The notes below the pieces were generated by a model, which saw only the letters and a program-made list of their open reading frames with translations, was not told where the DNA came from and ran no database searches. 64,000 bases of DNA from Paracyclopina nana (Eukaryota; Arthropoda; Copepoda; Cyclopoida; Cyclopettidae): positions 6,701,001 through 6,765,000 of the forward strand of contig JAGUCH010000008.1 of NCBI GenBank assembly GCA_019096065.1, written 5' to 3'. Below, one piece after another: positions 367 to 42,839 of the stretch. The position numbers and the translations under genes were made by a program. Positions within the stretch are counted from its first letter, which is position 1. Each line of letters starts with the position of its first letter.

Positions 367-526
367 CTCGAGTCAACACTCAACACTGTCCTGGAAAAAG
401 CAAGTTTTTTAGAACAGAGCCCCCAGACAGCGACTCAAACGTAGCATTAAATATGCCAAAAGAAGTTGCCATGCAAATGATCGAAATCAAAAGACAACTC
501 AAGCTACCAAAAAAGTCAGCACAAAA

Positions 527-1315
527 ATGCTTTTTAGAGTAGTTCCTGTCATTGTCACTAATGGCGACAAGCAAGTACATACAAATATGGTCCTCGATGA
601 AGCATCGAGTAATACTTTCATCAGCACTAGCCTCTTTAAAGCTCTGAACATTGCAGGACAAAAAGTCCAATACGATGTTTCAACTATAAATGACAAAGTG
701 CAAAGAATGAAAAGTTACAAATGCCAAATTAACATCAAGCCGACCCATGCAACAAAGCAAAACTTTGACATCAGCGCATATACATCTTACGGCATCAACA
801 AGCTCATAAAGTTGTCAAATTACGAGAAGCTGAAGCGAAAATTTCCGTTCATGAGAGACATAGACTTTCCAAAGCTACATAACGGCCCAGTTGAAATACT
901 GCTAGGGATTAACTATCCAGCCTTACATACAAGCTTTAAAGACTTGTCTTCCAGCGATCCAAACTCGCCCCTTGTAAGGGAAACAGTCTTTGGCTACACA
1001 GCCACTAATTCCAATCCGGATTCATCGTCAAAAGGCGAGACAACACTACTGACTAATGAAATCATACAAAATGAATGTCCAGAACTTAAGCAAATCATAT
1101 GCGCATTATTTGATGATGACAGTCAGGGACTAAAACTAGTAGAAAGCTCTGAATTCCTCACAGCTGATGAAATAAAAGCTAAAGAGATCATACAGAACTC
1201 CATCCACACTAATGCCAAAGGCAATAAAGAAATGGATTTTCCATGGTACTCATACCCCGATCCACCACCTCTTCCTAATAACTACTATCAAGTATATACC
1301 TTTGAAAAGAAATAA
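527..1315 (+). pseudogene. Bel/Pao retropepsin-like protease and linker
   Basis: This frame encodes an aspartic-protease-like domain of the Pao type. Residues 22-36 read MVLDEASSNTFIS, matching the Pao active-site layout (L-D-x-G-S-x-x-x-F-I) but with the usual Gly replaced by Ala. The N-terminal half (RVVPVIVTNGDKQVHTNMVLDE) has the alternating strands of a retropepsin, and ILLGINY further on fits the second conserved strand. A retroviral-type protease would cleave the polyprotein; the altered DEAS motif makes activity doubtful. The frame ends at a TAA at 1313. Because the same frame continues with RT-like sequence after this stop and a TGA at 1439, the stops look like later point mutations in a once continuous pol. 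Confidence 0.7.
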
Positions 1316-2213
1316 GAGGACAAACTTGGATCAGAAAACATGAAACAAGTAGACAAAGCCATTGATGACATGGTCAAGCATGGCGCTTTACGATTACTTC
1401 GAGACGATGAAGACAAGCTCGTAGGCTTCTACATACCTTGAGTAATGGTAGTCAAACTTGACAGACTGACAATGAAAGTCAGAGTCTGCATGGATGCAGC
1501 TAGGCCTTTTCAAAAAGACAAGGTCTCACTAAATTCTCAGGTCATGACTGGCCAAAAATTACAAGGAGACATCTGGTCTATCTGGCTACACTTCCAGATG
1601 GGCCTAAAAGGTTATATAGCAGACACTGAAAAGGTGTTTTTAAACGTACATCTTAGTGAAAAAGACAAAAAATTCCACAGACTCATTCACAGAGGCCAAG
1701 CTTATCAGTTTGAGTCCTGGGTCTTTGGAAATGCAGCCTCTCCTTATGCTGTTTTGTATACTATGAAGGAAATTTCAAAGGAGGGCAAATTACACCCCTT
1801 AACAGAATATGTATTCAACGAATGCCTCTACATGGACGATATTTTGATCAGCTGCAATGACACGAAAGATGCTCTTGCAGTCTATCAAGACATCAAAAAA
1901 GTCCACGCCAAGTCAAAAATGGTCTTAAAAGAGTGGGTCAGTAATGACAAAGAATTAATGGCTCAAGTAAACACAGAAGACTGGCATCCAACGTTTGACT
2001 TGCAGTCCAAAACTCCAGATGTCAAAGCTCTGGGCATCAAATGGATCTCAAGCAATGACACTATACAATTTCAAGCGTTGAAAACGAAGTTTAAAGAAGA
2101 AGACTTGAACCTGGTCACGAGGCGATATATCGCTTCAATAGTTGCACAAATATTTGACCCACATGACTTGCTTGCTCCATTCACACTTTGAGGTAGACTC
2201 ATAGCCCAAGAAG
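1316..2213 (+). pseudogene. Bel/Pao reverse transcriptase, N-terminal and palm parts
   Basis: This is the reverse transcriptase of the Pao element, in the same frame as the protease. From about 1330 the translation runs ENMKQVDKAIDDMVKHGALR and GFYIP, then a TGA at 1439, then VKLDRLTMKVRVCMDAARPF, matching the Pao RT entry motif. The catalytic YMDD box is encoded at 1829-1840 (CLYMDDILIS), so two of the catalytic aspartates are intact. The downstream palm and thumb follow (ALGIKWISSND, LLAPFTL). A third stop at 2189 and the insertion of a DNA transposon at 2214 disable it. The RT copies genomic RNA into DNA in cytoplasmic particles; this copy cannot do so. Confidence 0.85.
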
Positions 2214-3343
2214 GGTATACTGCCTAAAGGCACCAGGGGCAAAGGCATTATGATGAAAGGCTCCCTGATAAAAAGCGCGCTGATGAAAGGCATAATGGGC
2301 AAAGGCAACATTGGCTAATGGCACAAATCGTCAAAGGCAAGATGATCTATAATGTAAGGTGACCCCTTATCTCAGCTGTACTTCTACACTTCATCTGACT
2401 ATGCTATGGAAGGGCTTCTGACGAAAAAAGTAGAGTTCTATGAATCGTGAGTTTCACGAAAAAGCTGTCAGATGAGAGAAAATGCCATATTTAAGCAATT
2501 CTTGAAGTAAAAATTCCATGTCTGGTAAAGCTGATTAACAGGCTCCTCCCACTCGAGCACTAAAAAATTGGCGCTAAAATCTAAATTTGAATTTCCCGCT
2601 TTTTCATTGAAGCAAGCAGCATAAGCGCCACCGCACAAATGACGAAAGAACTAAAATAAGTTTAGTGAATTAACTTGCATACTTCCGTCTAGAATTGTCA
2701 TAGTGGATGGCCCTGGTCAAAGGCACATTTAAGCAATAAAAATTAATGCCACTTTACCACATTTGTTCCTTGTAATTATATGGATATGTTGCTGAGTCAC
2801 TCATAATGAATAGGTGGGGAAGATGAGCGTGTGCGTTATTACTATTGCGGAAAATCAGGGAAACTTTAGGCGGCAAAACAGTGCTTTTTTCCGCATTTTT
2901 GTATGTTTTTGTCAGTTGGACTTACTGCTGTGCAAGAGAATGTCTTCCTCAGAAGTTATTCCTGATCATGAATTTTTGATACTTTTTATAATGAACCAAG
3001 ATTCCTTAATCCCCATTTCCAAAGCATACATCAAATTGCATCAAATTCACCCGCAACTGAGAGCACTTAAAATAGTAAGCTTAAGCGCAAAAATCGAGAT
3101 CTTTCATACATTGACCAATCAAATATCATTTCCCAAAAACGTTGACGTAAATGCTAATTCTGCTGTCAGATTTTTTACAAACAGACAAATAAATTTGTGA
3201 TACCATTTCTTTTAGTGCCATTTTAATTAAGTTGCCTTTTATCAGTGTTGCTTTTGCCCACTATGCCTTTATGCAGCGTGCTTTTTATCAGGGAGCCTTT
3301 AATCGTGATGCCTTTGCCCCTGGTGCCTTTACCCAGTAGAGCC
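2214..3343. mobile_element. Non-autonomous Mutator-like element nested in Pao pol
   Basis: A 1,130-bp element interrupts the Pao RT/RNase H frame. The 9-bp sequence CCCAAGAAG occurs immediately before (2205-2213) and after (3344-3352) it, a target-site duplication of the size typical of Mutator-like elements. Removing the element and one duplicate restores the Pao frame (...IAQE then VWGF...), which independently fixes the borders. The arms are long inverted repeats of about 110-125 bp: 2214-2335 pairs with 3220-3343, both carrying AAAGGCACCAGGGGCAAAGG. Each arm reiterates a short AAAGGC phrase about every 15 bp. Inside is an unrecognised 128-codon ORF (2814-3200, +) with no transposase motif, so it is probably non-autonomous. 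Confidence 0.85.
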
Positions 3344-4488
3344 CCCAAGAAGTATGGGGCTTTAATGACACGCTAAAGCTTAACTGGGACGACAAACTGA
3401 TCGATTACGAGTCAAAAGATGATCGTATCAAACCAATCCTTGATGCATTCATGCAATTCACAAATGAAGCCACACGTATTGACCAAGATATGCCTCCATT
3501 CCGGAGAATCAAGTCATCCCAAGAGAACTTCATGCTTTTTGAGATGCTTCTTAAAAAGCTTACTGAGTAGCAGTTTACCTCCACATCATCTATACAGATG
3601 AACGCGGGGAACAAAGGGCTGAGGCCAACTTAATAACTGCTAAAAAGAAGCTCATATCATTCACTGGCCGATCAATTCCAAAAGCTGAACTGATGGGAGC
3701 AGTCTGCGCTGCTCAAATAGTGCCAAATGTTCTAAATAATCTAGCACTAATAAACTGCATTATAAGTGACGAAAACATCTTCTACTATCTAGATTCACAG
3801 TGCACTTTGCAGTGGATCAAATACTGCTCGAGAAGACTCGAGCAATTCATAGCTACAAGGCTTTCACTAATTAGAACCACAACAAATAAAAGTCAATGGA
3901 ACTATGTCAAAACTGACAAAAATCCAGCTGATAAAGGCACTCGCAGTCTTTCACTGGATGAATTCTTCAAGGACTCTAATAGCTGGTTCAAAGGTTATAA
4001 CCTAAACTCTCTAGACTACAGAATCGATGATGAGAACTTAAATGACATGCCAAATGACGAAAAAGACGAGTTAAGAAACTCTGTGGCTAGAATTTGTCTG
4101 TTCAGCCATCTAAAACTGCATAACTACCATCCATTGATGTCATTTGACAAAATCCGGAATCTATTAAAACTGGACACAAAATGGGCTGAAAAACAGCCTG
4201 CTGGCTTACACTCTTTTATGAACAAAAGACCTCTACTTTATACAAATGAATTTGTAAAACATCATTTCACAACTTTGGACAATCTACTAAAAAGTATGAG
4301 TCGACTATTACGTATTCGTAAAGTGCTAACTGAAAAAGCTCTAGCAAACCCTAGAAACCCAGCTCATACTCAGAAACTCCGAGAAGGCTTAAACCTAAAG
4401 GAAAAGCAATACGAAAACCAAGTTTTTTACAAAAAGAAACTTGCACTTTTTTCCTCATTAGAGAAGCTCAAAAAGAAGCATTTCTGAG
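3344..4488 (+). pseudogene. Bel/Pao RT connection, RNase H and integrase start
   Basis: The Pao pol resumes after the nested transposon with WGFNDTLKLNWDDKL, the Pao region after the RT palm. A stop and a frameshift lie around 3567-3600. The RNase H-like domain follows in another frame (from about 3590: ERGEQRAEANLITAKKKL, then PKAELMGAVCAAQ, FYYLDSQCTLQWI, ATRLSLIR and KNPADKGTRS), which matches the Pao RNase H order of conserved blocks including the Asp of YLDS and the NPAD motif. The 264-codon frame 3693-4487 then runs into the start of the integrase region and stops at 4488. RNase H removes template RNA during reverse transcription. The domain is recognisable but frameshifted. Confidence 0.8.
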
Positions 4489-12496: not shown

Positions 12497-12563
12497 CCAT
12501 GGAAAATCACATCTCGGATCTGAAGAATGAGGGCCAAAACCAAAGTTCACTCGTATTTGAAAA
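12497..12563 (+). CDS. C2H2-TET-like gene, exon 1 (start codon)
   Basis: A short exon is bounded by an acceptor (TTTTTATAG) and a donor (AAAA/GTAAGA). The ATG at 12499 opens MENHISDLKNEGQNQSSLVF and the exon ends two bases into a codon. The next exon at 14399 begins with exactly the one base needed, giving an uninterrupted frame into the zinc fingers; that phase agreement is the reason for linking them. The acceptor upstream of the ATG implies a 5' UTR exon further left, which I could not identify. The intron that follows is 1,835 bp and hosts a 604-bp transposon. A transcript would be decisive. Confidence 0.55.
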
Positions 12564-12594
12564 GTAAGATTACAAATTAAGAAGAAATGTTTTT

Positions 12595-13657
12595 AATTAG
12601 CCTTGCATTTGAGCGTAGGAAAATATAGAGGGAGCTCATTTCCTGCGTTTCTGAAAATTCCTCCGCTGATCTTAGGCCTCTGAATGCAGCACCTTTTCCA
12701 TGGGTGCCGTCACTAAGGCCTAAAATGAGGTGGGTTTTAGGATCTAAAATATTGGTGGATTTTAAGATCTAGCAAAGTGGGTTTTAAAGCCTACACTTTT
12801 CTGGATCTGGGTACTAAGATCTAAGTTGGAAAAGTAGTTTGAGTTTTACCTGGGTTTTACGATCTAAAGAAAAGGGTTTTAAGATCTAACAGTCACAAAA
12901 ATAGAAAGCTGCAAGGAATTGCACGTATCATTAGTTTTCAAAACTACCTGTTAAGTGGCTCTACACATTTTGAAGAAAAAATACATATATTTACGGAGAA
13001 AGTTAAAATATCAGGTTCCTACGAGTTTTCTTCTGTAAGTCACTTTTAATTATGAAACTAACTTTTCAGAGCTTAAAGATCTTGAAAAACAGTCAACTTG
13101 ATTTAAAAAGCTAAGTATAAAGAGGTGATGTTTTTCAATGTAGATCTTGAAACCCAGATGGTTAGATCTTAACATCCAACTATTAGGCTTTAGTATCCAA
13201 ACCTTTAGATCTTAATACCCAGAGTAAAAAAAGTGTAGGCTTTAAAACCCTTTATGATTTTAGATCCTAAAACCTACCCCTATTTTAGGCCTTAATGACT
13301 TCTCCCCTTTTCCATTTGCTTTCATATAAAAACTGATGATATTGTAGCATAAAACCAAAACATGAGCAGTCATTTGAAGACATTTGCAAAATGTTAGTGT
13401 TTTCAGAGAATTTTCTTTTTGCCAAAAGCATAGTTCCAATTGATATTGAGTTCTTGGGTGAATATGCCATGCACAAACAGAGATTTTTTACCGAAATTGT
13501 TGTTGATAAAAATACTAATAAGTTTACTTTCATCATTTTCGAAAATACTCCATAGGTCTCAAGAAAAACTCAAAAATCCTTATTTCCCTTTGCTTCGCAG
13601 CTGCGTTGATACTAGCTCTGTTTTCACAATAGGGGGCGCTATTTACCCTCGACGGCA
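12595..13657 (-). repeat. Dispersed repeat copy (filled site), inverted relative to 43874-44345
   Basis: Outside the inserted element, 12595-12701 and 13306-13657 match 44345-43874 in reverse complement. Shared blocks include AATAGGGGGCGCTATTTACC, AACTGATGATATTGTAGCAT and GAGGGAGCTCATTTCC, with moderate divergence. The family is not identified and no ORF spans it. Its importance is that the other copy lacks the transposon and so shows the pre-insertion state. Confidence 0.85.
12702..13305. mobile_element. Non-autonomous Mutator-like element in TET-like intron 1
   Basis: A 604-bp element with inverted arms: 12709-12830 (GTCACTAAGGCCTAAAAT, GGTTTTAGGATCTAAAAT) pairs with 13150-13299 in reverse complement (GTCATTAAGGCCTAAAAT). 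Each arm reiterates GATCTAAA/AAGATCTA and AAAGCCTA phrases every 20-25 bp. Flanks carry CCTTTTCCAT at 12692-12701 and 13306-13315, a 9-10 bp duplication. The paralogous site at about 44235 has a single related copy (AGGAAAAGG in reverse orientation) and no insert, confirming insertion. No transposase frame. Confidence 0.85.
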
Positions 13658-14398
13658 GGGGCTATTCCTGAAAGATAATTCAATTTAGACCTGATTAACT
13701 TATACATAGCTACAGTGGATCAAAAAGCCAGGCAATAGCAAAATAGCCTATGTGGAACTTAGCTGTTGAATTTTAACGTAGAGGATGCTTCAGTTGCTCA
13801 TTGGGCAGTCTGAAAAAGAACTTATTTGTAATTAACAAAAAAAATTTCAATTATTTTAGTTTTTTAAAACCCACTGAAACTCTTGAATTACGAAAATAAT
13901 CTGCCCTAGTGTAGCTCATAGCACCATCTACCTTAGGAATAATCCCGACTCAAAGCTGATGTTTCACTAAGGCCATTCTTTCAATTCACAAATTTTAATT
14001 ACCACCTATGTTCAGTTTCTAATTTATATGGCTTCTAGGCTAATTAAGAAATGCAAATTAGCATTAATTGAAAGAAAATGATTCAAACTTTGACCAGAAT
14101 TTTTTTTTTCACAAAACTTATTCTTGTTGAATTCAGTAGCACAGCAATTATGCACAAATTCCAAATACTACAAAGTCAGGGAGGTCAAACAAGTAGTGCA
14201 GTATGGTTATTCATCAAATTTGGCTTTGTTACTTACTTTTCTGAGTGCTAACATGCAATATTTTTGGCCTATCATACATAGCCTATCATACAGAGATTCT
14301 ACAATAATTGTAAGATCTTTTCCGTACAAGACAGAGTCAAATTCGGCAAATTAACCCACTGTGATATTACAATAATAACAACTACCAATATCTTTCAG

Positions 14399-15166
14399 TG
14401 GCCAACAGAAGCAAAAAGCTGGTCGAAAACCACTTTTAAGGTGCCATCATTGCTCATTCAAGACAAAGTATAAGTGCTCAATGACTGTTCATGCCCAAAG
14501 AGCCCACATCGATCGCCATTCCCAAAGTGGCCGTGCAACAAAGTTAAAAGAGTATTCAGGAGCTTTCAAGTGTGATAAGTGTGACTTTGCTTCTGAATAT
14601 GCTGTAGCGTTAAAGAGACATGAAAAAATTGAACATGTTAACAAGTGCAGCTCGTGTAACTTCCGTAGTACCATCAATAGTTCGGTGACAAACCACATTG
14701 CTTTCAAGCATGACTTAAAAGACATTGAATGCTGTGGTAAGGACTACGAGAGTGAGAGGAGCCACTCAATTCACTGTGGCCGAAAACACAAGGAGACTGC
14801 ACCTGCAGTTTTAGAAGAAGGTGGCGTAAGTGACGCTCCGATGATGTCTCCTCCAATTGCCTCACCTGAAGAGTCATCAGTGACAGAAGAAGGCCAAAGC
14901 AATTTTCAAATGCCTTTGAGTCAGTATAGGCCAGATTGTATGTGCAAGGTCAAGGCCGACCATTTCTACACCCACTTAGGGTGTTTCAACTCTGTGGCAA
15001 GGCTTCAGCATGAAATGAAAGAGCGATGCCAAGTCCCAATGGGCCAAATCCCCTTCATTGAAGTAATCCATGCACCAACCAGTCCAAAAAAGCCATCAGC
15101 TTGTCCAGTGGCGACAAATATTTTGCGTAGACAAGGGGAATCCTTCCTCATCTTGTATAGGAAAAG
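14399..15166 (+). CDS. C2H2-TET-like gene, exon 2: zinc fingers and start of TET Cys-rich domain
   Basis: The exon is bounded by ATCTTTCAG and AAAAG/GTAAAT. It encodes three good C2H2 fingers: CHHCSFKTKYKCSMTVH followed by RAH, CDKCDFASEYAVALKRH..H, and CSSCNFRSTINSSVTNH..H. A degenerate fourth unit (CCGKDYES...HCGRKH) follows, then an acidic Ser/Pro linker. It then enters the first part of a TET cysteine-rich domain: CMCKVKADHFYTHLG corresponds to the family's C-x-C...YYTHLG, ARLQHEMKERC to AAIREIMEERxG, IEVIHAP to the IEIVxYTG strand, and ACPVATNILRR to GCPIAKWVIRR. The last codons (ESFLILYRKR) continue into exon 3. TET enzymes oxidise 5-methylcytosine in the nucleus. C2H2 fingers in the position usually held by a CXXC finger are unusual. 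Confidence 0.85.
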
Positions 15167-15665
15167 GTAAATTTACTGTATCTTCACTTATTTAAGCCCT
15201 GTCTTTTCCTAAAAGACATCTGTTAACATGTTGGATCAAGCTTAGGTATGAAGAATTACCGTACCTGCTCAAATTTACGTCAAACTTCAGCCATAGTGTA
15301 GGACACCCTCATGGTGCAGCTATCTTAGGACAGTTTTCTCAGTGCTGACAGTTTTGATAATCTTCAGTTTTACTAACTTGACTTCGACTATTACGTAGGT
15401 TGCTCAGTAAAAATCAGAAATATTTAATGTCACATTGCTGAGCAGATTGCAAAGGTTGATAGTCTGGTCAGCAACATGGGTAGCATAATTTATAAGAAAT
15501 TCGTCACACCACCTAGCTAAGAACATAAGATCAACTGCCTGTGCAAATTTTGAAGGACTTGCATTTATCTCAGCTATCTTTGTTCCAGTCCCTATTGTCC
15601 TTTCTAAAATTTTGTCAATTGTTATCATGAAATAATACGGAATGACATTAGAAATCAAATTTTAG

Positions 15666-15891
15666 GAACGGACACACCTGTCAGTACAAGGTTATTGTGA
15701 TAGCTGTAATTGTATGGGAGGCAATCACCAACGCAAAAGCAAAACAGTGCTACCAGATATTGTCAAGAATAACTGGCCATTATGGTAAACATGGTCAAAG
15801 ACGCTGCCAAGCCAACAACCAAAGAGATTGTCAATGCCTGCAAAATGGTGGCAGTTTCTCTTTCGGATGCTCATACCAGTTCCATTTAGGG
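15666..15891 (+). CDS. C2H2-TET-like gene, exon 3: rest of TET Cys-rich domain
   Basis: The exon starts after AAATTTTAG and ends at a GTAAGT donor. It joins exon 2 in phase to read LYRKR-NGHTCQYKVIVIAVIVW, matching the TET block LVRxRxGHxCxxAVIVILIxxW. It continues with YGKHGQRRC, RDCQC and NGGSFSFGCSYQFHLG, the family's RRCxxNxxRTCxCQ and GASFSFGCSWSMYFNG. The zinc-binding Cys and His positions of this subdomain are kept. The 499-bp intron before it has no other signal. The next residue expected is the Cys of GCKFAR. I do not see a convincing following exon before the inverted-repeat element at 16725, so the middle of the catalytic domain is missing or unrecognised. Confidence 0.85.
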
Positions 15892-16724
15892 GTAAGTTTT
15901 TTTAAGCTTTGGATCAATATAATATATAAAAATATATAATATATAAATATCAATGCACGAGGCCATTGGCTTGAGTCAGCCAGAACTCTTCGAAGACATA
16001 CGCAGCTCATACCAGGCACCTGTCAATATCACGATCCAGGTTCTCCAATAAGGCCTACCGCAGTGCATTTTTCAAGACAAGTCATACATCGTCCTGATAG
16101 TCGAGAATAAGAGGGTCCTGATAGCTCTTAATAATCCAGTGTCAATATCATATTTCTCCCAAGGCAGGCTCCATAAAAATCACAAATGCACCACTACTAC
16201 GTTTACCCCAACCACCTCACCTCATGCAACCACAGTGCCCTTGAAGTCCCTGATGGAAGTAGGAGCTACACCTGGACAACAAGTGTCCCAGGTGCATACT
16301 GCTATGCCCTGGCAATGGCTGCCACCTACTTGTCATGAGGACCCTACCAGTCCTCAGTAGGGGGAAGTTGTATCAGAAAAAGGGGTCCACTTGCCCTATC
16401 GAGCTTCTGCTGTCATGGTGGAATCTCATGTTCAAAGATGACAGTAAATACACGACTATGCTTGAGTAAAGATTTCTATTGTATCACTTCATAAGAGCGT
16501 CAAGTGTCACCCTCGGGGAGTATTTGAACCCCAAAACATTAGACAGGGGAGAATGTCCAAAAATTCTAACTTCCATTTGGGCCAACCCTAACAGGCCAAT
16601 GGGGCAAGGAGAACAATTAAAGGGGCAAATAGCCATGGCAAAAGCTATCGACACTGTTGTTGAGGTCAAATTATCTAATAAATATGTCATAAGTTTTTTG
16701 TTCTAGTTTGCATTATTTGAAAAT
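15892..16724. other. Intergenic or intronic stretch after TET-like exon 3; possible decayed exon
   Basis: An open stretch at about 15953-16042 reads GLSQPELFEDIRSSYQAPVN before a stop, and another frame is open to 16360. Weak resemblance to the TET segment after the Cys-rich domain (a helix then a tyrosine and an APxAY-like motif) is suggestive only. No acceptor with the expected Cys codon is present. A frame at 16479-16706 is also open without recognisable content. Confidence 0.3.
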
Positions 16725-18894
16725 AAAGGCGGTGTAACCTTTCGCGCTACAACTCTACAAAATTGAGACGTTGCTTTTTTTCACTAATAGGTGCCCAATT
16801 TTTTGTTGCTCGGTGCATCACTAGTCCCATGGGATCGCCAAAACACCCAAGTTTTTTTCTCTGCGTAGCCGGGAAGTGCCTCAAAATCAAGGTTTTTTCC
16901 AGCCTTGCGATCCGCCATTTCGCGATTTTTATTATTAATCGGATTTAATATTTTCCGTCAAATTGTCGTGCGCTAACTACGTACCGCTAGCAAAGCAGTG
17001 TGACGTCACTCAGTTGCAACAGCTGCATGCCTGGATGCGCGCCGAATTCTTAACAAGCCGAAAAGTGGGCCGAATTTCTCTAGAAAAACAGGCAGTGATT
17101 CTGGATAAAAACAGGCCATGATTCTCGTAAAAAAGGCTTATTTTTCGAAATTCGAAATAAAGAGCCGAGCCTTGCCATGGAAACACGCCGAATTCTGGTG
17201 CAAAACAGGCCACGATTCCCGTACAAAAATGCCGGAAGGAAGGAGCCAATCTTGCTACAGAAAACAAGTATGAACAAGTGGAGGACAAGTATTTCTTACC
17301 GGCCCCGCCCTCGGCTTCATAGGCATACCACAGGCTTGGCTGCCAGCTCTGGAGTAAAGTGAAAACGCGAGAGAGACCTGCCATTGAAGATGTGGTCTTC
17401 AAATCCATGGCCAAGTTCCCCTGGGCTGGCTCAAGGTTCTGGAGGACAAGTATTTCTTCCCAGCCCCGCCCTCGGCTTCCTGGGCATACCTCAGCTTGGC
17501 TGCTAGCTTTGCAGTAAAGTGGAAACGCGAGACGTGCCATTGAAGACATTGGCGGGGCCCAGACACAGCTTCAAACCCATGGCCAAGTTCCCCTGGGCTG
17601 GCTCCAGGCTCCGGAGGACAAGTTTTTAAATATATGGAATATGAGTCGTATGATCTTTATGTAGCTGCGCTAATAGCAATGCTTAATGATCCTTCAATCT
17701 ATTCAAATAATCTATCGCCTATGACAATGCTTTTCTCCACATTTACCATGCTGTCAATAATGCACAGATTCCATCATTAGGCTGAGGCAAGTCTTTCAAC
17801 CTTGTGTGATCACATTGAGAGATTGACCGCATTGACCACAAAAATGATACCATTCCTGCAGCAAGCCAGCATGAATTCCTTGTACTGTTTCTCACCTGTA
17901 CAAGCCTCAAGTTTTCAATGCCATGGCCTAAAAAGAAGATTTTGTGCACGTTCAGAATGGAAAGCTTATAAGGATGCTAGCTCACTCACTTGTTGGTAGT
18001 TGAATGCTAGTCACTTATGTTTCGTATGAACTTTGCCTCAGATTGGCAATTTTCTGCTCAGGTTTATTTTGGCATGAATCCGCATTTTGGTCTAAAAAAT
18101 TGATGCTGCTTTGGACAAATTATGGCTTGTTTTTCACGAGAATTTCGGCTTGCTGCTACGACCAAATTCACCACTTTAGGCATTGCTTTGTGACATCAAA
18201 ATCTTCCTCTTTTTGCATGAGAATTTTGCGTTGTTTTTCTTGGGAAATTCGGCTCACTTTTCGGCGCGCATCCAGCATGATCCACGCTCTTGGCGTGTTT
18301 TTCACGGGAGCTTCGGCTCGCTGCTACGGCTGAATTCACCACTTTTGGCACTGACATCATTGATCCAAGTGTAAGCGGCAGTCTTGGCTCCTTATTCCAG
18401 CAGTTTGGCATTTTTTTCACGGGAATCGTGGCCTGTTTTGCACCAGAATTCGGCGTGTTTTCACGTCAAGGCGAAAATTATGCCTTTGTTACGAGATTCG
18501 TGGCATGTTTTTACCAGAATCATAGTATTTTTCTACGGAAATTCGGCTCACTTTTCGGCTTGTTTAGAAATCGGCGCCACGCGGCGCGCATCCAGGCATG
18601 CAGCTGATGCAACTGAGTGACGTCACACTGGTTCGCTACGTAATTAACGCGCGACAATTTGACGAAAAATATTAAATCAGAAGAATAAATAAATCGCGAA
18701 ATGGCGGATGGCAAGGCAGATAAAATCCTCGAATTTGAGGCACTTCCCGTCCACGCAGTGAAAAAATCTTAAGTATTTTGGCAACCCCATGGGACCAGTG
18801 ATGCACCGAGCAACAAAAAATTGGGCACCTATTAGTGAAAAAAAGCAACGTCTCAATTTTGTAAAGTTGTAGCGCGAAAGGTTACACCGCCTTT
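16725..18894. mobile_element. Large inverted-repeat (foldback-like) element between TET-like exons
   Basis: A 2.17-kb element begins AAAGGCGGTGTAACC and ends in its reverse complement. The outer ~330 bp (16725-17060) are repeated inverted at 18545-18894 with high identity, including TAGGTGCCCAATTTTTTGTT and GATGCACCGAGC. Further inward the arms reiterate a GAATTCGGC...TGTTTTT phrase in opposite orientations (17040-17250 and 18110-18580). Two direct ~165-bp copies (GGAGGACAAGTATTTCTT) sit at 17279-17440 and 17441-17625. The long frames over the arms are repeat artefacts. I found no target duplication and no transposase. Confidence 0.75.
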
Positions 18895-18949
18895 CAATCA
18901 TTACCAAATAGGCGTGAACTTGCTGATAAGGGTTAAATGGGGTCAGTAC

Positions 18950-19715
18950 ACTCAGTTCATCAGTGATACACTATTCAGAAATATCAGACTCCAACACTTG
19001 GATCGACACTGCGGAAAGTCTACATGAACCAGACTTGGAGAGATAAAACAAATCCTCTTTGGATCGACTATGAGAACACACAGTCTTCAGATAGACTAGG
19101 AATGTCTGTATTTGGAAAGATTTGAAAAGCTAACTTTACCTGGGTATACAAGACAAACTGTCCTTGGGTCGACTATGATAATGCACAGTCCTTGGATCAA
19201 CAAAATAAATCATCCTTAGATACACATAATGACTTTCTAGGTACCAACCTATTTTACAAAGCTGATAAAATAAGGCCTGGTTCACCCGCACATTATGTAA
19301 ATAATATATAGTAATATTTTTATTATTTTTATAGTTCAATTATTAATGCTTGACAACTCGCATTAGTAAGTTTGGCTTAGTAAGTACAAGGGTAGTTATG
19401 CTCTATCCATGGTCTGCTTTTTGAAACAGTCAATCCATGGGCAATCCATTTTTCATTGCTTTCTACTTGTCCAATTAAGTGGATCAAAAAAGCCGATTTG
19501 ACAAGCAGCAGTTTTGTACAAATTGAGCAAAAATGGAATCTTCCATAACTTTTACTTCCAAAGGAATTTCAATTAAGTGACCAAGTCAGGGAAGTCAAAC
19601 TTATAGCAAAAAAAAAGGACAGTCCCATATTGTTGATCAAAGGAAAGTGTGTTCTTTTTGTCTATCCAGGGATAATATGTTCTAGTTGATCCAAGAATGT
19701 TTGCCCCTGATATTG
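18950..19715. mobile_element. Probable degenerate inverted-arm element with CTTGGATC phrases
   Basis: From 18990 to 19225 the phrase YTTGGATCRAC..A recurs about every 40-90 bp, with CACACAGTC-like tails. At 19635-19705 the same phrase occurs in the opposite orientation (GTTGATCCAAG, CTATCCAGG, GTTGATCAAAGG). This resembles the phrase-iterated arms of the other elements, but the borders and target duplication are not resolved. Confidence 0.35.
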
Positions 19716-19776
19716 TAAAGGGAGTTGTTATAGCTGGTGAACCATGTCTTAAATACATATTTTTCTATTATTACAG

Positions 19777-19828
19777 ATGTAAACAATATGGTTGGTGGAG
19801 TGACAACTGTACTGACTCAAGCCAGAAG
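19777..19828 (+). CDS. C2H2-TET-like gene, candidate catalytic-core exon
   Basis: A 52-bp exon lies between TATTATTACAG and a GTACGT donor. Read with a G from the previous exon it gives D-VNNMVGGVTTVLTQARR, resembling the TET segment just after the iron-binding H-x-D, where the family shows HxDxxNMxxGxTxVxTLTxxxxR. If right, the Asp codon is split by the intron. The exon is on the same strand and in the right order. The alternative frame (CKQYGWWSDNCTDSS) is also open, so this is a moderate call. The exon that should carry the His of H-x-D was not found; it may lie in, or have been displaced by, the 16.7-18.9 kb element. Confidence 0.45.
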
Positions 19829-19933
19829 GTACGTTTTATGGATGTTTTTTTAACTGCAGAGTTTCTCATGACTCAATCGGTATTATTTCAGATCAAACTG
19901 AAAAAGCAGAACGACAATGTGAGCTCCAATAAA
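19829..19933 (+). other. Possible 3' end of the TET-like gene with AATAAA
   Basis: After the GTACGT donor two acceptors are possible. One at 19859 gives a 31-bp intron and 23 in-frame codons (VSHDSIGIISDQTEKAERQC and three more) to a TAA at 19930. The other at 19891 gives a 63-bp intron and an immediate stop. AATAAA at 19928-19933 could end the transcript. Either way the second half of the double-stranded beta-helix (third iron ligand and 2-oxoglutarate Arg) is absent here. Confidence 0.3.
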
Positions 19934-20204
19934 AAATAACATGTTTTTCAATAATTAACAATTGCATTCAGAAGGGTCAAAAGGTCCTTCGAGCCGGATC
20001 CACTTCGATCCACCCCTAATCTACTCGGGCTTGGAACCCTGTCCCCACCAAAGTGACCTTCAAGAGGCTGCCACCTTTTGTTCATCCATGTCATCTGGCG
20101 GCCGCATTTGGGCCATCTACTGGACCTGGCGATGTTTTGAGCATCCGATTACGACTCCAGCATCTGGCCGCAACTCCTTCAACCGGCAATACTCCCGCAC
20201 ACGG

Positions 20205-21345
20205 CTGCGACTCCCGCACTTGGCCGCCCGCGACTCCCGCACTTGGCCATGATTCCCTCACATGGAGTTCATCCCGGAGATGGTGTACGAGGTGGCGCGG
20301 CAGTACGCGGCTGCCCTTGACTCCCGCACTTGGCCGCCCGAGACTCCGGCACTTGGCCGCCCATGACTCCCGCACTTGGCCGTCCGTGACTCCTGCACTT
20401 GGCTGCCCGTGACTCCCGCACTTAGCCGCCCATGACTCCCGCACTTGGCCGCCTGTGACTCCCGCACTTGGCCGCCCGAGACTCCGGCACTTGGCCGCCC
20501 GTGACTCCCGCACTTGGCCGTCCGTGACTTTCGCACTTGGCCGCCCGTGACTCCCGCACTTGGCCGCCCGTGACTCCCGCACTTGGCCGTCCGTGACTCC
20601 CGCACTTGGCCGTCCGTGACTCCCGCACTTGGCCGTCCGTGACTCCCGCACTTGGCTGCCCGTGACTCCGGCACTTGGCCGCCCGTGACTCCCGCACTTG
20701 GCCGTCCGTGACTCCTGCACTTGGCTGCCCGTGACTCCCGCACTTAGCCACCCATGACTCCCGCACTTGGCCGCCCGTGACTTCCGCACTTGGCCGCCCA
20801 TGACTCCCGCACTTGGCCGCCCGTGACTCCCGCACTTGGCCGCCCGTGACTCCCGCACTTGGCCGTCCGTGACTCCCGCACTTGGCCGTCCGTGACTCCC
20901 GCACTTGGCCGTCCTTTACTCCCGCACTTGGCTGCCCGTGACTCCCGCACTTGGCCGCCCGTGACTCCCGCACTTGGCCGTCCGTGACTCCTGCACTTGG
21001 CTGCCCGTGACTCCCGCACTTAGCTGCCCATGACTCCCGCACTTGGCCGCCCGTGACTCCCGCACTTGGCCGCCCGAGACTCCGGCACTTGGCCGCCCGT
21101 GACACCCGCAATTGGCCACCGAAGACTCCGGCACTTGGCTGCCCGTGACTCCCACACTTGGCCGTCCGTGACTCCCGCACTTGGCTGCCCGTGACTCCGG
21201 CACTTGGCCGCCCGTGACTCCCGCACTTGGCCGCCCATGACTCCCGCACTTGGCCGTCCGTGACTCCCACACTTGGCCGTCCGTGACTCCCGCACTTGGC
21301 TGCCAGTGACTCCCACACTTAGCCGCCCATGACTCCCGCACGATT
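20205..21345. repeat. 23-bp GC-rich minisatellite
   Basis: About 44 copies of a 23-bp unit, consensus TGACTCCCGCACTTGGCCGCC plus CG, run from 20324 to 21345. A short lead-in block lies at 20205-20248, separated by 75 bp of non-repeat sequence. Variants alternate GCC/GTC and CGTG/CGAG/CATG. All three minus-strand frames are open because 23 is not a multiple of three, giving a 23-residue period. It is far more GC-rich than its surroundings. Confidence 0.95.
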
Positions 21346-21926
21346 GCCACATTACCAATGAACAAGGGGGGTTGAGAGGGCAAGTTCTACTTCAAATGCC
21401 ATCCTGAATGAAAACTGGACAAGGACCGCACTTGGAACAACATTTGGTTTGGGCGCCTGCAATATCTTGGGAGTTAAACCCTTCCTTGCGGGTTTAAAAG
21501 GGGGTTTAGACCAGAATTGCGCGTCTACTTAGCTGCAGAACTATCTAGTTTGCTCAGTCAGCATTGAGATGCTCCATGTTTTCCTTATTGCTCAACCTTC
21601 TGCAGTTTCTCACTTGCTACCTTACTTCTGAACCAATAAGAACTACCTTGATACTTTGGATTTACTGTCCTATAATTTGCCTATTTGTTAACGTGTACCA
21701 TAACTACCATTTATCTACCATGATGTGTTCTTGTATTCTACATTGAGTCCATCTGACTCTCCCTATCGGGATGATAAGGTGGCAAGTCATATCGGGTCTA
21801 TCTGACCCTGGTCAATCCGACCAATCTGGCTCTTCAGCCATGTATTTTGCCTGCTACAGCAGCAGCTCACCAATGTATTTAGCGTCAGCTAAGGGGGCAT
21901 TTCCAGCCAAAACAACAATGATCCCA
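21346..21926. other. Spacer between minisatellites
   Basis: No coding frame or repeat structure recognised. The last ~40 bp lead into the 18-bp array. Confidence 0.4.
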
Positions 21927-23357
21927 ATGTGCACAATGATCATGTTGTGCACAATGATCGCGTTGTGCACAATGATCACGTTGTGCACAATGATCGAATT
22001 GTGCACAATCATCACGTTGTGCACAATGGTCGTGTTGTTCACAATGATCGCGTTGTGCACAATGGTCGCGTTGTGCACAATGATCCCAATGTGCACAATG
22101 GTCACATTGTGCACAATGGTCGCGTTGTGCACAATGGTCGCGTTGTGCACAATGATCCCAATGTGCACAATGATCGCGTTGTGCACAATGGTCGCGTTGT
22201 GCACAATGATCACATTGCGCACAATGATCGCATTGTTCACAATGATCGCGTTGTTTACAATGATCCCGGTGTGCACAATGATCGCGTTGTGCACAATGAT
22301 CGCGTTGTGCACAATGATCGTATTGTGCACAATGATCACATTGCGCACAATGATCGCATTGTTCACAATGATCGCGTTGTGCACAATGATCGATTTGTGT
22401 ACAATGGTCGCCTTGTTCACAATGATCCCGTTGTGCACAATGGTCGCGTTGTGCACAATGATCACGTAGTGCACAATGGTCACGTTGTTCCCAATGATCC
22501 CGTTGTCCACAATGATCGCGTTGTGCTCAATGGTCACGTTGTTCACAATGATCGAGTTGTGCACAATAGTCACATTGTTCACAATGATCCCGTTGTGCAC
22601 AATGATCGCATTGTTCACATTGTGCACAATGATCGCGTTTTACACAATGGTCGCGTTGTGCACAATGATCCCAATGTGCACATTGTGCACAATGATCGCG
22701 TTGTATACAATGGTCACGTTGTTCACAGTAATTGCGTAGTGCACAATGATCCCAATGTGCACAATGATCGCGTTGTGCACAATGATCCTGTTGTGCACAA
22801 TGATCCCGTTGTGCACAATGATCCCAATGTGCACAATGGTCCCGTTGTGCACAATGGTCGCGTTGTGCACAATGGTCGCGTTGTGCACAATGATCCCAAT
22901 GTGCACAATGATCACGTTGTGCACAATTGTCGCGTTGTGCACAATGATCGCGTTGTGCACAATGGTCGCGTTGTGCACAAAGATCCCAATGTGCACAATG
23001 ATCCCAATGTGCACAATGATCGCGTTGTGCACAATGATCCCAATGTGCACAATGATCGCGTTGTGCACAATGATCCTGTTGTGCACAATGGTCGTGTTGT
23101 TCACAATGATCGCGTTGTGCACAATGGTCGCGTTGTGCACAATGATCCTAATGTGCACAATGGTCACATTGTGCACAATGGTCGCGTTGTGCACAATGAT
23201 CCCAATGTGCACAATGATTGCGTTGTGCACAATGGTCGCGTTGTGCACAATGATCGCGTTGTGCACAATGATCGCGTTGTGCACAATGATCGTGTTGTGC
23301 ACAATGATCGCGTTGTGCACAATGGTCGCGTTGTGCACAATGATCGCGTTGTGCACA
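21927..23357. repeat. 18-bp minisatellite, large right array
   Basis: Roughly 80 copies of CACAATGATCGCGTTGTG with point variants (GATCGC/GGTCGC/GATCCCAAT). It is the reverse complement of the short array at 4712-4910. Units carry the TTGTGCACAA palindrome across the junction. The length-18 period makes many frames open on both strands (VHNDRV, CTMIAL and others); these are not genes. Higher-order patterning is visible, with CCCAATGTG units recurring every few copies. Confidence 0.97.
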
Positions 23358-23361
23358 ATGC

Positions 23362-28063: not shown

Positions 28064-29930
28064 CTACAGAGTTGGGCTAGGTGGGCTTTGTGGTTCCACC
28101 TTGATGGGGGTTTGATCTGTAATAGACTGAGGCTGCTGTTCCTCTGACTCCTTTTTATAAGGGATCGGTAAAGGAGTTGGGTCTTGGGGATTTAAGATGT
28201 GAATGTCATCAGGCAAAACTGTAATATAACCTGAATTCCCCTCCCCATGTTTGCCGGGACACAGTGGATTTGCAGATGCTGCATTGTCATTTTTGCAAAC
28301 TTGGCAACTTGCATTTTTACTTAACTCACTGTTCTTTGTTGTCTCTGGCTCCTTGTGCAATTCTGTTGCCAAGTAAGGCCGCAGTCTGTTCACATGCACG
28401 AATCGGGTTTTCTTTGTAAGATAATTCTGGATAAGTGCATTCGTGTCGTCTCTCATGGTCAAAATTAAGTGCGGTCCTGTCCATTCACTTGAGATTTTTG
28501 GGTTGATTTTTCTTAGTTCTGGTTGGTGTAGCCATACTTGCATTCCTTCTGTAAAAACCAAGTTAGGCCTATTTTTGTTGTACTGTGCTGAGTAGTCAAT
28601 TTTATAGCTTAGATTAGACTCCCTGGCTGCTTTTCTTGCCAACATTAGCCGTCGTTTTATCTCTGATGCATAGTCATCACCATAATAGATTCAATCTGGC
28701 AGATTTGGGTCCATCAAATTTGATCTGGGGTGTACTCCAAACATAAGATAGTAAGGTGAGTACCGAGTAGCTTTAGACACACCACTATTGTAGGTTAATT
28801 GCATGGCTGGTAACATCGCTTCCCATTCCAGTGTATTGGAGTCAATCATTTTCTTGAGATAAGTGGCAATGTGCTTGTTGATAACTTCCGCTGCACTGTT
28901 ACATGCTGGGTGGTACGCCGATGTTTGCCTCTTATCAATTTCCATGTATTCGTATAGGGCCTTGCTCAAGTTTGACGTGAATTCCTTTCCTTGGTCTGTT
29001 ACAAATACAAAAGGGGGTCCAAATCTACAGATCCAGTGATTGAACAGTGCGTGGGCCACAGTCTCTGGAGTTTTGTCCGGGAGTGCCACAAATTCAGCAA
29101 ATTTGGTGAATGCATCTGTAATCACTAAAATAAACTTTTTGTTTGCCTCACTTGTATGTAGTGGACCCATCCAATCCGCATGAACCCGCTCAAATGGTCC
29201 TCGAGGTTGTGCATGTGGTTGCAAGTGGGCATTGGGTTTGAAGGGCCGGGGTTTATTTTTGTCACATTTCCAGCATTGGGATATGTAATCCTCAACATCC
29301 TTTTGCATTCTAGGCCAGTAAAATTCTTCTTTAAGTCTTTCCAAGGTTTTGTATATTGCCTTGTGACCCACAGCAGCATGGGCAGACGCCACCAAATCAG
29401 CATGTGTGATGGCGGGCGCCAATATTACCTTTTTTCCTAGGGGTCCATCTTTGTAAAATAATATTCCATCCAATAGTTCGCAGTGTGATCCAATTTTCTC
29501 AGCTAGTTTTCTTAAATCCATGGACATTGTCTTCATGTCTTCTTTTCGTAACCATTTGATAATTGCATTGCATAAGCCATCATCTTTTTGCAGTTCAAAC
29601 AAATCCATATTGTCTTCTTTTGCCTCATGTGCGTAAACTTCTTCACTTTTGAGGCCTTTGCTCTTTTCCATGAGCTCTGGTACATTTCGGGAGAAATAAT
29701 CTGCTAGGTTAGCCTTACCTGGCCAGTGACGTACCACAAAGTCGTATTGACGCATTTGATATTGAAGCCTGTTCAGTGTCCTGGTGTGTTGTTTTCCCAA
29801 ATTTTACAGTGGCTTGTGATCCATGTAAAATCCTATTACTATTAGCTGCTCCCCAACATTTCAAGCATTGGCTATAATTGAATTTATGAGAGTTTTTTAG
29901 GCTTGTTTTTTGCAAAATATGCCTTAAATT
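28064..29930 (-). pseudogene. Gypsy A RNase H end and integrase
   Basis: The pol frame resumes at about 29930 with DHKPL (RNase H), then LNRLQYQMRQYDFVVRHWPG and NLADYFSRN, which end the RNase H domain. Integrase follows: H2C2 zinc motif (AHAAVGHKAIYKTLERL...CWKC), catalytic Asp in VHADWMGPL, Asp in FVTDQGKEF and Glu in SAAEVINKH, all present. A TGA at 28691-28693 splits the frame. The C-terminal part (28645-28064) has the GPY/F-type module (KISSEWTGPHLIL, VHVNRLRPY). The gypsy integrase inserts cDNA in the nucleus. Apart from the stop the core looks complete, so decay is fairly recent. Confidence 0.88.
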
Positions 29931-37597: not shown

Positions 37598-40500
37598 CTA
37601 AGTTAGAATGTAGCCGATGCCATATAACCTGCTGGCATCCGTTGTCAACACTGTGGTCTTGTTGACATCAAAATGCTTCACCAACAAAGGTCCGGTCAGG
37701 ATCTTCTTCAGCTGGTTGAAGTCTTCTTCGTGTCTTGGTAACCACTGAAACTGAACTTTGGCCTTGGTTAGCTCCCTCAATGAAGCTGACATGTGGGCCA
37801 AATCAGGCAAGAAACTTCCTAAAGTTTGAGCCAATCCCAAAAAGCTTCGCACATCCGACTGGTTGGCTGGCCTTGGGTACTCCCTGATTGCTTTCAAGTT
37901 GTCATCGTGTGGTTCTACACCATTCTTGCTGACCATGAATCCAGCAAACTTGACACGTTCACCCATGTGCAGCTTTTTGGGTGATAAGCTGACACCATAG
38001 GTTTTGCAGTTGCTGAGGAGGACATCCAGATTGTGCAGGGCTTCCTGCTCTGTTTCTCCCCAGATGAGGACATCATCGACCAATTTGACTCCCTTTCCGT
38101 TCAGGCCAGTCATGATCATGTCACTCCTGCAGCACCACTCATCGCTGGAAGATGTGAGCCCCATGGGAGCTCTCACATAACGGAATCTTCCCTGTGGTAG
38201 CAAAAATGTAGTCAAGTAGGATGACTTTTCTTCCAACTTGATCTGGTGGTATCCCTGCGCACAGTCTCCGACCACAAACCACTGAGCCTTTGCAGGGATG
38301 CTCTTCAACAAATGGAATGCAGACGTAAAGGGGTGGGTTGGTCTCTTCACGTACTTGTTCAGCTGAACAAAATCCGTAACCAACCTGACTGATTTGCCAT
38401 CAGACTTGATGACAAAGAAGCCTCTAGAGGTCCAGTCTGTCATCTCCCCTGGCTTCAGCTTCTTGACAATGTCGGCATCCTCCAAATCCTTAATGCACTT
38501 ATCCGCCGCTGCTTTGAGATGCACCGGTATGGCATTGGTTGAAGAGATCCTCATAGGTTTTATGTCCCCATCCACTAGGTGGATCTTCATGGGTTCACCC
38601 TTCATAAACCTGGTTTTGTCAAGCTTGTCTGCAAAGACTTCTGCATATTTGAGCTTCAAGCTCTCCAGAGTCATATCCATTGTGGTTGCTGCGATTGCCG
38701 TGGAGTTAATGTTTAGGCCAACCACGCCTAATATCTCCAGAGTCTGCCAATCGACAATCACCTCTTCTTCGTCACCAAGTGAAGCGACCACTGCATTGGT
38801 TACTACAACCACTTTCATGCCACGTGATATTGCAATCTCACATGTTCTGCTCGTCTTCACTTCGGTGCCATCAACGCTCCTGACGGTCTCCGGATTGGGA
38901 TATATTGGCATCCCCATCTCCGCTGCAACTTTCTCATCAACCACAGTAATGGTTGCTCCAGTATCTGGCAGGCAATACGTAGAGAAAGCAGACCCTACCT
39001 CAGGGCAAAATAATAGCTTGGCCTTGGGAGTTGGCCTTGATGACGTGACCCTGGTAGCATTGGGTAGGCATGAGGGCCGCAGCCCGCTCACTGCCTTGGA
39101 GATCTTCTGCTGCATCTCCTTCTTTTTTCTGCTCTTGGTCTTCGCCATCTTGATAACCCCTGCCCCTCCGTCATCTTCCTCCATCCTCTTGATGCGACTC
39201 TGAAAAATGAACGGCAGAGAGTATCTATCTTTTGATTTTTTCATAATGCGTATTGCCTCATTGCAAGCAATAGCGTTTTTACACTCCAACGTGCTAGAAA
39301 AATCAAAACTCAAAGGCAACTTAACTGTGAATTTTTTAATGGCTTTCGTCGGGTTCCCATTCGGCTTCTTCTCGCCACCCTCGCCCTTGCCTTTCTTCTT
39401 GAAGCATTTGTCCGCCCCATGACCCTTCTTCTTGCAAAATTGACAGGTTGGTGCCTTCGGACAATTTGGTCGGAGGTGCTCTTTACTTCCGCATTCAAAG
39501 CAACCTCCATGCTTCTTCTTCTGGCTTGAACCTGCGGCCTCAGCCCCAGCATTCGAGCCCATGGCCTTTTTCTTGCGATAAGCAGTAGGCCCAGCCTTCT
39601 TCACGGTAGGGTTCTCGTAACCCTCTTCGGTGGCTGTATTAACATCATACATATTGCCAGCCGATTTGAGCTCATCCATCGTTGCTTTGCCGCCAGCTAA
39701 GTTGTCGGCCTTGATAAGCTCTTTCCGTAAGGCTTTATTAGCTAGAGAGCTCATATAGAGGTACTTCATTACCGTCTCTATGTCCATGCTCTCGAACTCG
39801 GCTGCTTTGCATTTCAGCTCAAATGCAGCCCAACTCGTTCCATGCAGCTCGCTTGGGTTTGTACTTTTGTGACGAAAGCACTCCAGTCTTCTCTTAGACA
39901 ATGGAAACGCCAGCTGGAACTCGTTTACTACGATCCTCTCCATTGAAAGGATCCAAGGAGTGCCCACATTTTCATCTTGTATGAAAAGGGGCGATTCCGC
40001 ACTCAACTTTGCTGAAATCTTGGCTGATAGATTGGCATCAAATAATACCAGACTGTAAGTGTGCTGGGCATCGATGGACTTCTTCTGGATCTCCGACTCT
40101 TGAACGTAGGTCTTCCAAGTCCTCAAAAAAACCTGCAGCTCAATGGCTGTAGCACCAGTCTTCAGCGTTTTCGGCTTCAAATTTGCATCCGGCTTGACAA
40201 TTTTTCTGTCCTCTGATGCCGGTGCATTTGATGCCGATATGGCAGTTGGGTTGGCCTTTTCGTACCGGCCTGTGATTGCCAGTGCTTTCAATTCCAGGGC
40301 ATCCTTTCTCTCGAACATCTCCTTGACCTTGTCAGCTTGAGTGACTCGGGTCTCGTCCGGCAGGTTATTTAAAATCTGCATGATGCTATTCTCCTGGTCG
40401 ACCAACTTTTGTTTCAGCTTCTGGAGCTCTTTTGCTTCTGAAACTGAAATGTCCTTCTGCCTTTCCAGGGCCTCGCATAGCTTCTCTCCGGCATTCATGT

Positions 40501-40855
40501 GCCTGGACAGCCAACTCTTGTGTCCATTGAGACTATGTATTTGTTTGGTGAGGTCCTCGAGTGCTCTTGCACCTCTGGCTTCGGAAAGCTTTCCGATTGC
40601 CAATTGCAAGTCAGTTGGAATCTCCTTCTCGGTCATCGCTAAATTTGCTCTGACCGCACTTGTGTCAAATGTGTCCTCGTCACTATTTGTGGCTGCCAAA
40701 AGCGTATCTTCGGGGCCCTCCGCTTCTTCTTTGGCTTCTTCTAAGGCTTTCACTTGCCTTTGAAGTGCTGCAAATACGTTCTGATCTGCAGTATGCCACT
40801 CTTCTTCGCCAGCACTTTTAATTGAGTCCTGGCTCATGGACACTTTTGTTGACAC
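37598..40855 (-). CDS. Gypsy B gag-protease-reverse transcriptase polyprotein, near intact
   Basis: One uninterrupted 1,085-codon frame starts MSTKVSMSQDSIKSAGEEEW. Residues about 28-190 are a long coiled coil (QRQVKALEEAKEEAEG, LQKLKQKLVDQENSI), and 230-430 a capsid-like region. Two CCHC knuckles sit at about 456-485 (CFECGSKEHLRPNC, CQFCKKKGHGADKC). The protease active site is YCLPDTGATITVV near 660. RT spans about 790-1010: VRLVTDFVQLNKYV, the first catalytic Asp in VVGDCAQGYHQIKL, FRYVRAPMGL, and LVDDVLIW (VDD in place of YxDD). RNase H starts TTDASRLYGIGYILT and meets a TAG at 37598-37600 that is the only break before the next frame. It is the best-preserved retrotransposon ORF in the window, suggesting recent insertion or stop-codon readthrough. 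Confidence 0.9.
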   Translation of the reverse strand: MSTKVSMSQDSIKSAGEEEWHTADQNVFAALQRQVKALEEAKEEAEGPEDTLLAATNSDEDTFDTSAVRANLAMTEKEIPTDLQLAIGKLSEARGARALEDLTKQIHSLNGHKSWLSRHMNAGEKLCEALERQKDISVSEAKELQKLKQKLVDQENSIMQILNNLPDETRVTQADKVKEMFERKDALELKALAITGRYEKANPTAISASNAPASEDRKIVKPDANLKPKTLKTGATAIELQVFLRTWKTYVQESEIQKKSIDAQHTYSLVLFDANLSAKISAKLSAESPLFIQDENVGTPWILSMERIVVNEFQLAFPLSKRRLECFRHKSTNPSELHGTSWAAFELKCKAAEFESMDIETVMKYLYMSSLANKALRKELIKADNLAGGKATMDELKSAGNMYDVNTATEEGYENPTVKKAGPTAYRKKKAMGSNAGAEAAGSSQKKKHGGCFECGSKEHLRPNCPKAPTCQFCKKKGHGADKCFKKKGKGEGGEKKPNGNPTKAIKKFTVKLPLSFDFSSTLECKNAIACNEAIRIMKKSKDRYSLPFIFQSRIKRMEEDDGGAGVIKMAKTKSRKKKEMQQKISKAVSGLRPSCLPNATRVTSSRPTPKAKLLFCPEVGSAFSTYCLPDTGATITVVDEKVAAEMGMPIYPNPETVRSVDGTEVKTSRTCEIAISRGMKVVVVTNAVVASLGDEEEVIVDWQTLEILGVVGLNINSTAIAATTMDMTLESLKLKYAEVFADKLDKTRFMKGEPMKIHLVDGDIKPMRISSTNAIPVHLKAAADKCIKDLEDADIVKKLKPGEMTDWTSRGFFVIKSDGKSVRLVTDFVQLNKYVKRPTHPFTSAFHLLKSIPAKAQWFVVGDCAQGYHQIKLEEKSSYLTTFLLPQGRFRYVRAPMGLTSSSDEWCCRSDMIMTGLNGKGVKLVDDVLIWGETEQEALHNLDVLLSNCKTYGVSLSPKKLHMGERVKFAGFMVSKNGVEPHDDNLKAIREYPRPANQSDVRSFLGLAQTLGSFLPDLAHMSASLRELTKAKVQFQWLPRHEEDFNQLKKILTGPLLVKHFDVNKTTVLTTDASRLYGIGYILT

Positions 40856-41995: not shown

Positions 41996-42030
41996 ACTTG
42001 CTTTGTTAAGATTTGTTAGATAAATTTGAG

Positions 42031-42730: not shown

Positions 42731-42839
42731 TGTGCAGCACTTTTTGAGGTGTTGTTCTAGATGTCAGATCTCGTTGCCTTGCTCCTGGCTTATGCCATTG
42801 ACATGCTAAGGGACTACAAGCTGGACCCCACCATCAGGC

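Follow-up and report, generated by a model that had tools for sequence, protein, structure and literature searches.

The locus lies in a window of 64,000 nucleotides (G000:C8:6701001-6765000), the whole stretch analysed here, whose sequence is without N and in which Rfam and tRNA scans found nothing; the genome searched comprises 92 Mb in 10 contigs. As the earlier note on this DNA had proposed, three exons with a start codon join in phase, giving 353 codons from the ATG at 12499 without a stop, and their splice borders are exact (AG|12497...12563|GTAAGA, AG|14399...15166|GTAAAT and AG|15666...15891|GTAAGT). The coding features are as follows.

12499..12563, + strand: coding portion of exon 1, starting at the ATG; its end is in phase 2 and joins in phase, with AG before 12497 and GT after 12563
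14399..15166, + strand: exon 2, one open frame with the C2H2 array, a linker and the N-terminal half of the TET cysteine-rich domain
14442..14507, + strand: finger 1, C-x2-C-x12-H-x4-H, read from the translation
14571..14636, + strand: finger 2, C-x2-C-x12-H-x4-H, read from the translation, with weak C2H2 profile matches
14646..14711, + strand: finger 3, C-x2-C-x12-H-x4-H, matched by the zf-H2C2_5 profile
14730..14789, + strand: finger 4, a variant with adjacent cysteines that is common to four aligned arrays and also present in a decayed copy (L028)
14937..15166, + strand: first half of the TET cysteine-rich domain (CMC ... YTHLG ... ACPVA ... YRKR), by the TET2 match and conserved columns
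15666..15891, + strand: exon 3, second half of the TET cysteine-rich domain (GHTC ... RRC ... DCQC ... FGCS), by the TET2 match and 69.8 bits to an HMM of the paralogues

A search for homologues of exon 1 (12499..12563) found none. Exon 2 is the heart of the locus: an open frame of 263 codons (14379-15170) extends from the fingers across the linker through the first half of the cysteine-rich domain, and to that extent the fusion does not depend on any assumed splicing. The central claim of the earlier note, that a C2H2 array is fused to a TET cysteine-rich domain, holds.

Zinc fingers and cysteine-rich domain

When the translation is read by eye, the ligands of the tandem C2H2 fingers are in place, three fingers with the canonical spacing and a fourth, described before as degenerate, whose cysteines are adjacent, likewise in the three other arrays aligned with it. 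A check of the product against zf-C2H2 profiles, recommended together with the original description, gave a divided answer: over the 353 residues none of the C2H2 families of Pfam exceeds its cut-off, while exon 2 alone matches zf-H2C2_5 with a marginal 27.3 bits against a cut-off of 27. TGEKP linkers are absent and the residues at the base-reading positions of the fingers are unusual, both again by eye. No CXXC finger matches within the 353 residues up to an E of 1, and the structure predicted for exon 2 from the single sequence has a mean pLDDT of 38, too low to be informative.

The closest finger array in the genome is an open frame on another contig (L027, C3:5891095-5891721), with 37% identity. 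Like the array of the window, it has three fingers followed by an adjacent-cysteine fourth, and a GRK motif before finger 1, but unlike the window it has no TET sequence that could be found in the 20 kb fetched around it. The two arrays differ at 49, 39 and 74 of 126 codons in the first, second and third codon positions, respectively, a pattern that would be expected if they diverged while coding. The corresponding numbers between the window and the decayed copy are 14, 19 and 26 of 47 codons and 25, 23 and 33 of 68 codons, with a smaller excess at the third position than in the comparison with L027. Two further arrays with an adjacent-cysteine finger lie within 1.4 kb of each other elsewhere (L029 4476-5835, - strand).

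That the second part of the protein is a conserved TET cysteine-rich domain, as had been claimed, is borne out by several observations. Residues 208-351 match human TET2 (9hxv) with an E of 1.5e-23, and identity to the genome's own TETs is 31-42% over 64-75 aligned codons. For the alignment and tree of this domain 18 rows were intended and P0006 and P0026 were left out; in the resulting 16 rows, a column was called conserved when at least 80% of the 15 rows other than the window have Cys or His. Ten of the eleven such columns are kept in the window, and the eleventh (GCK) lies beyond exon 3. The conserved Cys and His residues of the TET cysteine-rich domain are metal ligands. In the other columns the window has the commonest residue in only 47 of 142, and the retention of ten out of ten Cys or His columns present in spite of this suggests that the domain was under constraint until recently or still is. 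Between 15166 and 15666 an intron splits the domain after ...R and before xGHxC. The four catalytic-domain TETs of the genome (T1-T4, see below) have an intron at this position, so that the locus is a genomic descendant of a TET gene and not a retrocopy. In the tree of the 16 rows the branch of the window is the longest and its placement is unsupported, and thus no origin among T1-T4 is claimed for it.

It is to be noted that Pfam Tet_JBP (PF12851) does not match the 353 residues, nor does it match at the window locus in a genome search. By the wording of the earlier note, which took the lack of a significant TET profile match to speak against its finding, this counts against it, yet the TET assignment is secured by the TET2 match, the identity to the paralogues and the Cys and His columns. 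In paralogue T1, the Tet_JBP model starts where exon 3 of the window ends.

The catalytic half and what lies in its place

An HMM built from the four paralogues with a catalytic domain was run over the six frames of the window. Besides exon 3 (69.8 bits), it found a match antisense to a retroelement at 11.5 bits and one at 19734-19850 with 8.6 bits, and the next reached 3.9 bits. The former (39742-39894), although it scores higher than the latter, was rejected because it is antisense to a reverse-transcriptase frame at 37601-40891. Behind exon 3 the following features are found.

15953..16042, no strand assigned: dispersed repeat just behind exon 3, present at no fewer than 39 other places in the genome (at least 39) with 81-88% identity
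16725..18894, no strand assigned: foldback element in the gap where the catalytic exons are expected, with outer arms of 204 nt that are 91% complementary
19777..19828, + strand: 52-nt relic of the catalytic HxD exon (HMM 8.6 bits), which reads VNNMVGGVTTVLT and in which the HxD residues are absent
19892..19939, + strand: last exon, IKLKKQNDNVSSNKK followed by a stop, in frame with exon 3; 94% identity to L058 over 104 nt (19881-19982)

The relic lies downstream of exon 3, likewise on the + strand, with AG before it and GT after it, and its donor is at the site used in another TET fragment (L057). Its 3' end resembles the next TET residues only in another frame. One of 200 dinucleotide shuffles of 15937-20000 reached its score on either strand, and none of 200 on the + strand. 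Used as a query, 19760-19965 has a match at one other place in the genome, L058, and at no third; since the matching sequence of L058 follows a TET exon encoding the catalytic end, 19892-19939 is read as the last exon of the gene. It begins only 63 nt behind the relic. Under predicted splicing, exon 3 would join the last exon in frame to give a product of 368 residues, and exon 3 spliced to the relic at 19777 would run into a stop after one codon.

The two other pieces of the core, namely the exon starting at GCK and the one encoding HV...GLVFYQH, were found neither by the T1-T4 HMM in six frames of the window nor by a protein search of the whole genome. Whole-genome protein searches at E <= 10, which included the last 60 kb of the contig, gave no TET piece on the contig besides T4, 5.7 Mb away. 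Of a double-stranded beta-helix with HxD...H and the 2-oxoglutarate arginine, then, there is only the relic without HxD, and no later catalytic exon in the window or, by protein search, near it. What had been called a TET-like dioxygenase retains of its catalytic beta-helix nothing in the window but the 52-nt relic and the last exon, and the name does not fit: as assembled, the locus is shown by its coding content to be unable to oxidise 5-methylcytosine.

Tandem arrays with units of 23, 18 and 10 nt occupy 20309-21341, 21915-23360 and 42026-42733, respectively, and long open frames run through them in several reading frames; arrays of the 18-nt type flank the TET exon of L058 as well. Retroelement frames lie at 413-4484 (+ strand, Pao-type peptidase and reverse transcriptase), 28694-29803 (- strand, integrase) and 37601-40891 (- strand, 1097 codons, with protease and reverse-transcriptase matches).

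Relatives in the genome and in other organisms

TET copies or fragments occur at eight places in the genome, the window included, and four of them have a catalytic domain. Those outside the window, together with a partial match beside T1, are listed here.

C2:1.73 Mb (C2:1731k): T1 (L001), catalytic domain present
C4:4.58 Mb (C4:4578k): T2 (L002), catalytic domain present
C4:5.08 Mb (C4:5084k): T3 (L003), catalytic domain present
C8:1.00 Mb (C8:1004k): T4 (L004), catalytic domain present
C3:3518.7 kb: L028, decayed copy in which finger and cysteine-rich sequence lie next to each other; it is spread over three frames, is interrupted by stops and has its end at the same TET splice site
C3:6185.3-6188.7 kb: L057, exons 4-6, with a stop in exon 6 and shifted frames in exons 4 and 5
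C2:15012.4 kb: L058, only the last two TET exons
C2:1729.7 kb: partial C-terminal TET match with a stop, beside T1

The fusion is not unique to the window, since L028, though decayed, has it as well. An exon-4-like match of 10.7 bits on the minus strand of that copy was reached by none of 200 shuffles, which can be taken as a hint only. No finger array lies beside T1-T4 among the 38 genome matches of the window protein, the nearest being about 180 kb from T4. The related fragments have many small exons and large, repeat-filled introns. In L057, the exon that starts with GCKW and the donor behind the HxD exon correspond to the ends of exon 3 and of the relic in the window, with the GCKW site offset by one glycine codon. 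The window, L057 and L058 probably represent a TET subfamily with an intron pattern of its own, which would have been duplicated and would now be decaying. Upstream of the TET fragment of L057 there is an open frame of 521 codons (L057 373-1938, + strand).

How does this gene compare with TETs known from animals? TET1/2/3 and invertebrate TET have in common with the window the cysteine-rich domain (human TET2 being the match cited above), and the genome's other TETs have the intron in the same place, but the window differs from animal TETs in having no catalytic beta-helix and in having an N-terminal C2H2 array. A CXXC finger is present in other TETs, and known animal TETs are targeted by it or by partners. 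Annelid and other spiralian TETs are reported to be without CXXC (PMC11292947). With T1 as the query, 194 proteins came up at E <= 0.001, and among the best 120 of the 194 no C2H2 family appears in the Pfam column. These listed matches include stick insects (Timema) and barnacles, and one of them, P0054, carries PF02008. Two of the T1 matches from eukprot are, by their labels, presumably copepods. TETs do gain modules other than CXXC: P0006 (1040 aa) has SAND and Tet_JBP and P0106 (457 aa) has PWWP and Tet_JBP, with SAND and PWWP over the Pfam cut-offs. Both resemble the window in carrying a module of DNA- or chromatin-binding type within the TET polypeptide, and differ from it in that the modules are others and the full Tet_JBP match is kept.

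In a search for orthologues with the 353 residues as query, none of 363 candidate proteins reached E <= 0.001. When a longer query was scored on these residues, three of 722 candidates came out at E <= 10 (Crotalus, Gallus and Cryptolaemus), and for all three Tet_JBP is the one Pfam domain listed. Because these searches require shared 5-residue words, they are weak evidence of absence. The same fusion, which it had been proposed to look for in related genomes, was met within this genome, as the decayed copy, and not in the protein searches, with the limit just given. Engineered zinc-finger-TET1 demethylation tools also join zinc fingers to TET sequence, but unlike the window they have an active catalytic domain and are man-made. 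Zinc fingers are named among the platforms, and TET1 among the effectors, in PMC10003136. A natural TET with a C2H2 array was found neither in a literature search that excluded most subscription journals nor in the protein searches, in line with the earlier remark that no such TET was known to its author. The copy of the fusion in the window is, as assembled, catalytically dead.

Origin and fate of the locus

The locus is most probably a partly decayed gene, in which the 5' half of a TET with an N-terminal C2H2 array survives and catalysis is lost. A TET gene would have acquired the array at its N-terminus, and the product of the resulting ancestor most likely had all three parts, the fingers, the cysteine-rich domain and the catalytic beta-helix, so that a C2H2 module of its own would have stood in the place of the CXXC, or of nothing, in other TETs. 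Since no locus with fingers and catalytic domain together was found anywhere in the genome, this full-length ancestor is inferred. The window copy would then have lost most of its catalytic core, and mobile elements now lie in the gap. The 353 codons that are left stay open and, to judge by the frame, could be spliced to the old last exon, with a predicted product of 368 residues made up of fingers and cysteine-rich domain. The order of the remains favours partial decay, because the relic and then the last exon follow exon 3 on the same strand as they do in TET; the intact 353-codon frame and the shortness of the relic, with its 8.6 bits, speak against it.

Alternatively, the 368-residue protein may be made and used in a repurposed, non-catalytic role, for instance occupying DNA or competing with or recruiting other TETs, which we consider unlikely though worth weighing. 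It would explain why exons 1-3 are open, in phase and bordered by AG and GT, why the Cys and His columns are kept, and why exon 3 joins the last exon in frame. Moreover, when mutation without constraint is simulated to an assumed divergence of 3%, exons 1-3 remain open in 17.9% of 1500 runs if there are no indels, in 3.8% with 0.05 indels per substitution and in 0.9% with 0.1; as the divergence since the loss is an assumption, the simulation does not decide between use and decay. Against such a role stand the stop one codon after a splice from exon 3 to the relic, the decay of the related fragments, the loss of the core with mobile elements in the gap, and the lack of an orthologue in the protein searches. 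In addition, the cysteine-rich domain of TET2 packs on the catalytic domain, so that the domain of the window may not fold alone. For the window copy, decay is more likely than repurposing.

With the catalytic core missing, sequence-specific targeting of 5mC oxidation, which the earlier note had inferred for the fingers, can be proposed only for the ancestral full-length gene and no longer for the window locus. A bolder and rather improbable proposal is that a natural zinc-finger TET, guiding 5mC oxidation to selected sequences, evolved in this lineage and persists intact in a relative; the window copy would be a derivative repurposed without catalysis, whose fingers keep the active TETs off the same sites.

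Might an intact zinc-finger TET have been missed because its catalytic exons lie at a distance, belong to a different haplotype or dropped out of the assembly? The small exons and large repeat-filled introns of the related fragments make this conceivable, as do the repeats in the gaps of the window, which are hard to assemble; but the last exon follows only 63 nt behind the relic, the window is free of N, and T4 is the sole TET piece that the protein searches at E <= 10 detect on the contig, so that we regard it as quite improbable. Finally, that a finger gene and a TET fragment are separate and lie together by chance is hardly credible, for even though the intact paralogous array at L027, with no TET sequence in its 20 kb, shows that the two parts can exist apart, both lie here in one open exon of 263 codons and the same adjacency recurs in the decayed copy at C3:3518.7k.

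A C2H2 array within a TET polypeptide would be the natural counterpart of engineered zinc-finger demethylases, and a natural zinc-finger TET would permit a direct test of sequence-targeted 5mC oxidation. The window locus is no working example, yet it is evident from the genome that such a fusion came about and was duplicated, and relatives of this animal are the place to look. The locus also shows duplication and loss of TET in a genome that retains DNMT1. Seven PF00145 matches fall in three loci, and in this one search no DNMT3 was among the seven. L041 (C2:16349k) and L040 (C2:4446k) match DNMT1 with E of 3.2e-81 and 8.9e-42, respectively, and L039 (C2:8153k) matches DNMT2 with an E of 6.5e-52; it is plausible that 5mC is available as a substrate for the other TETs of this genome.
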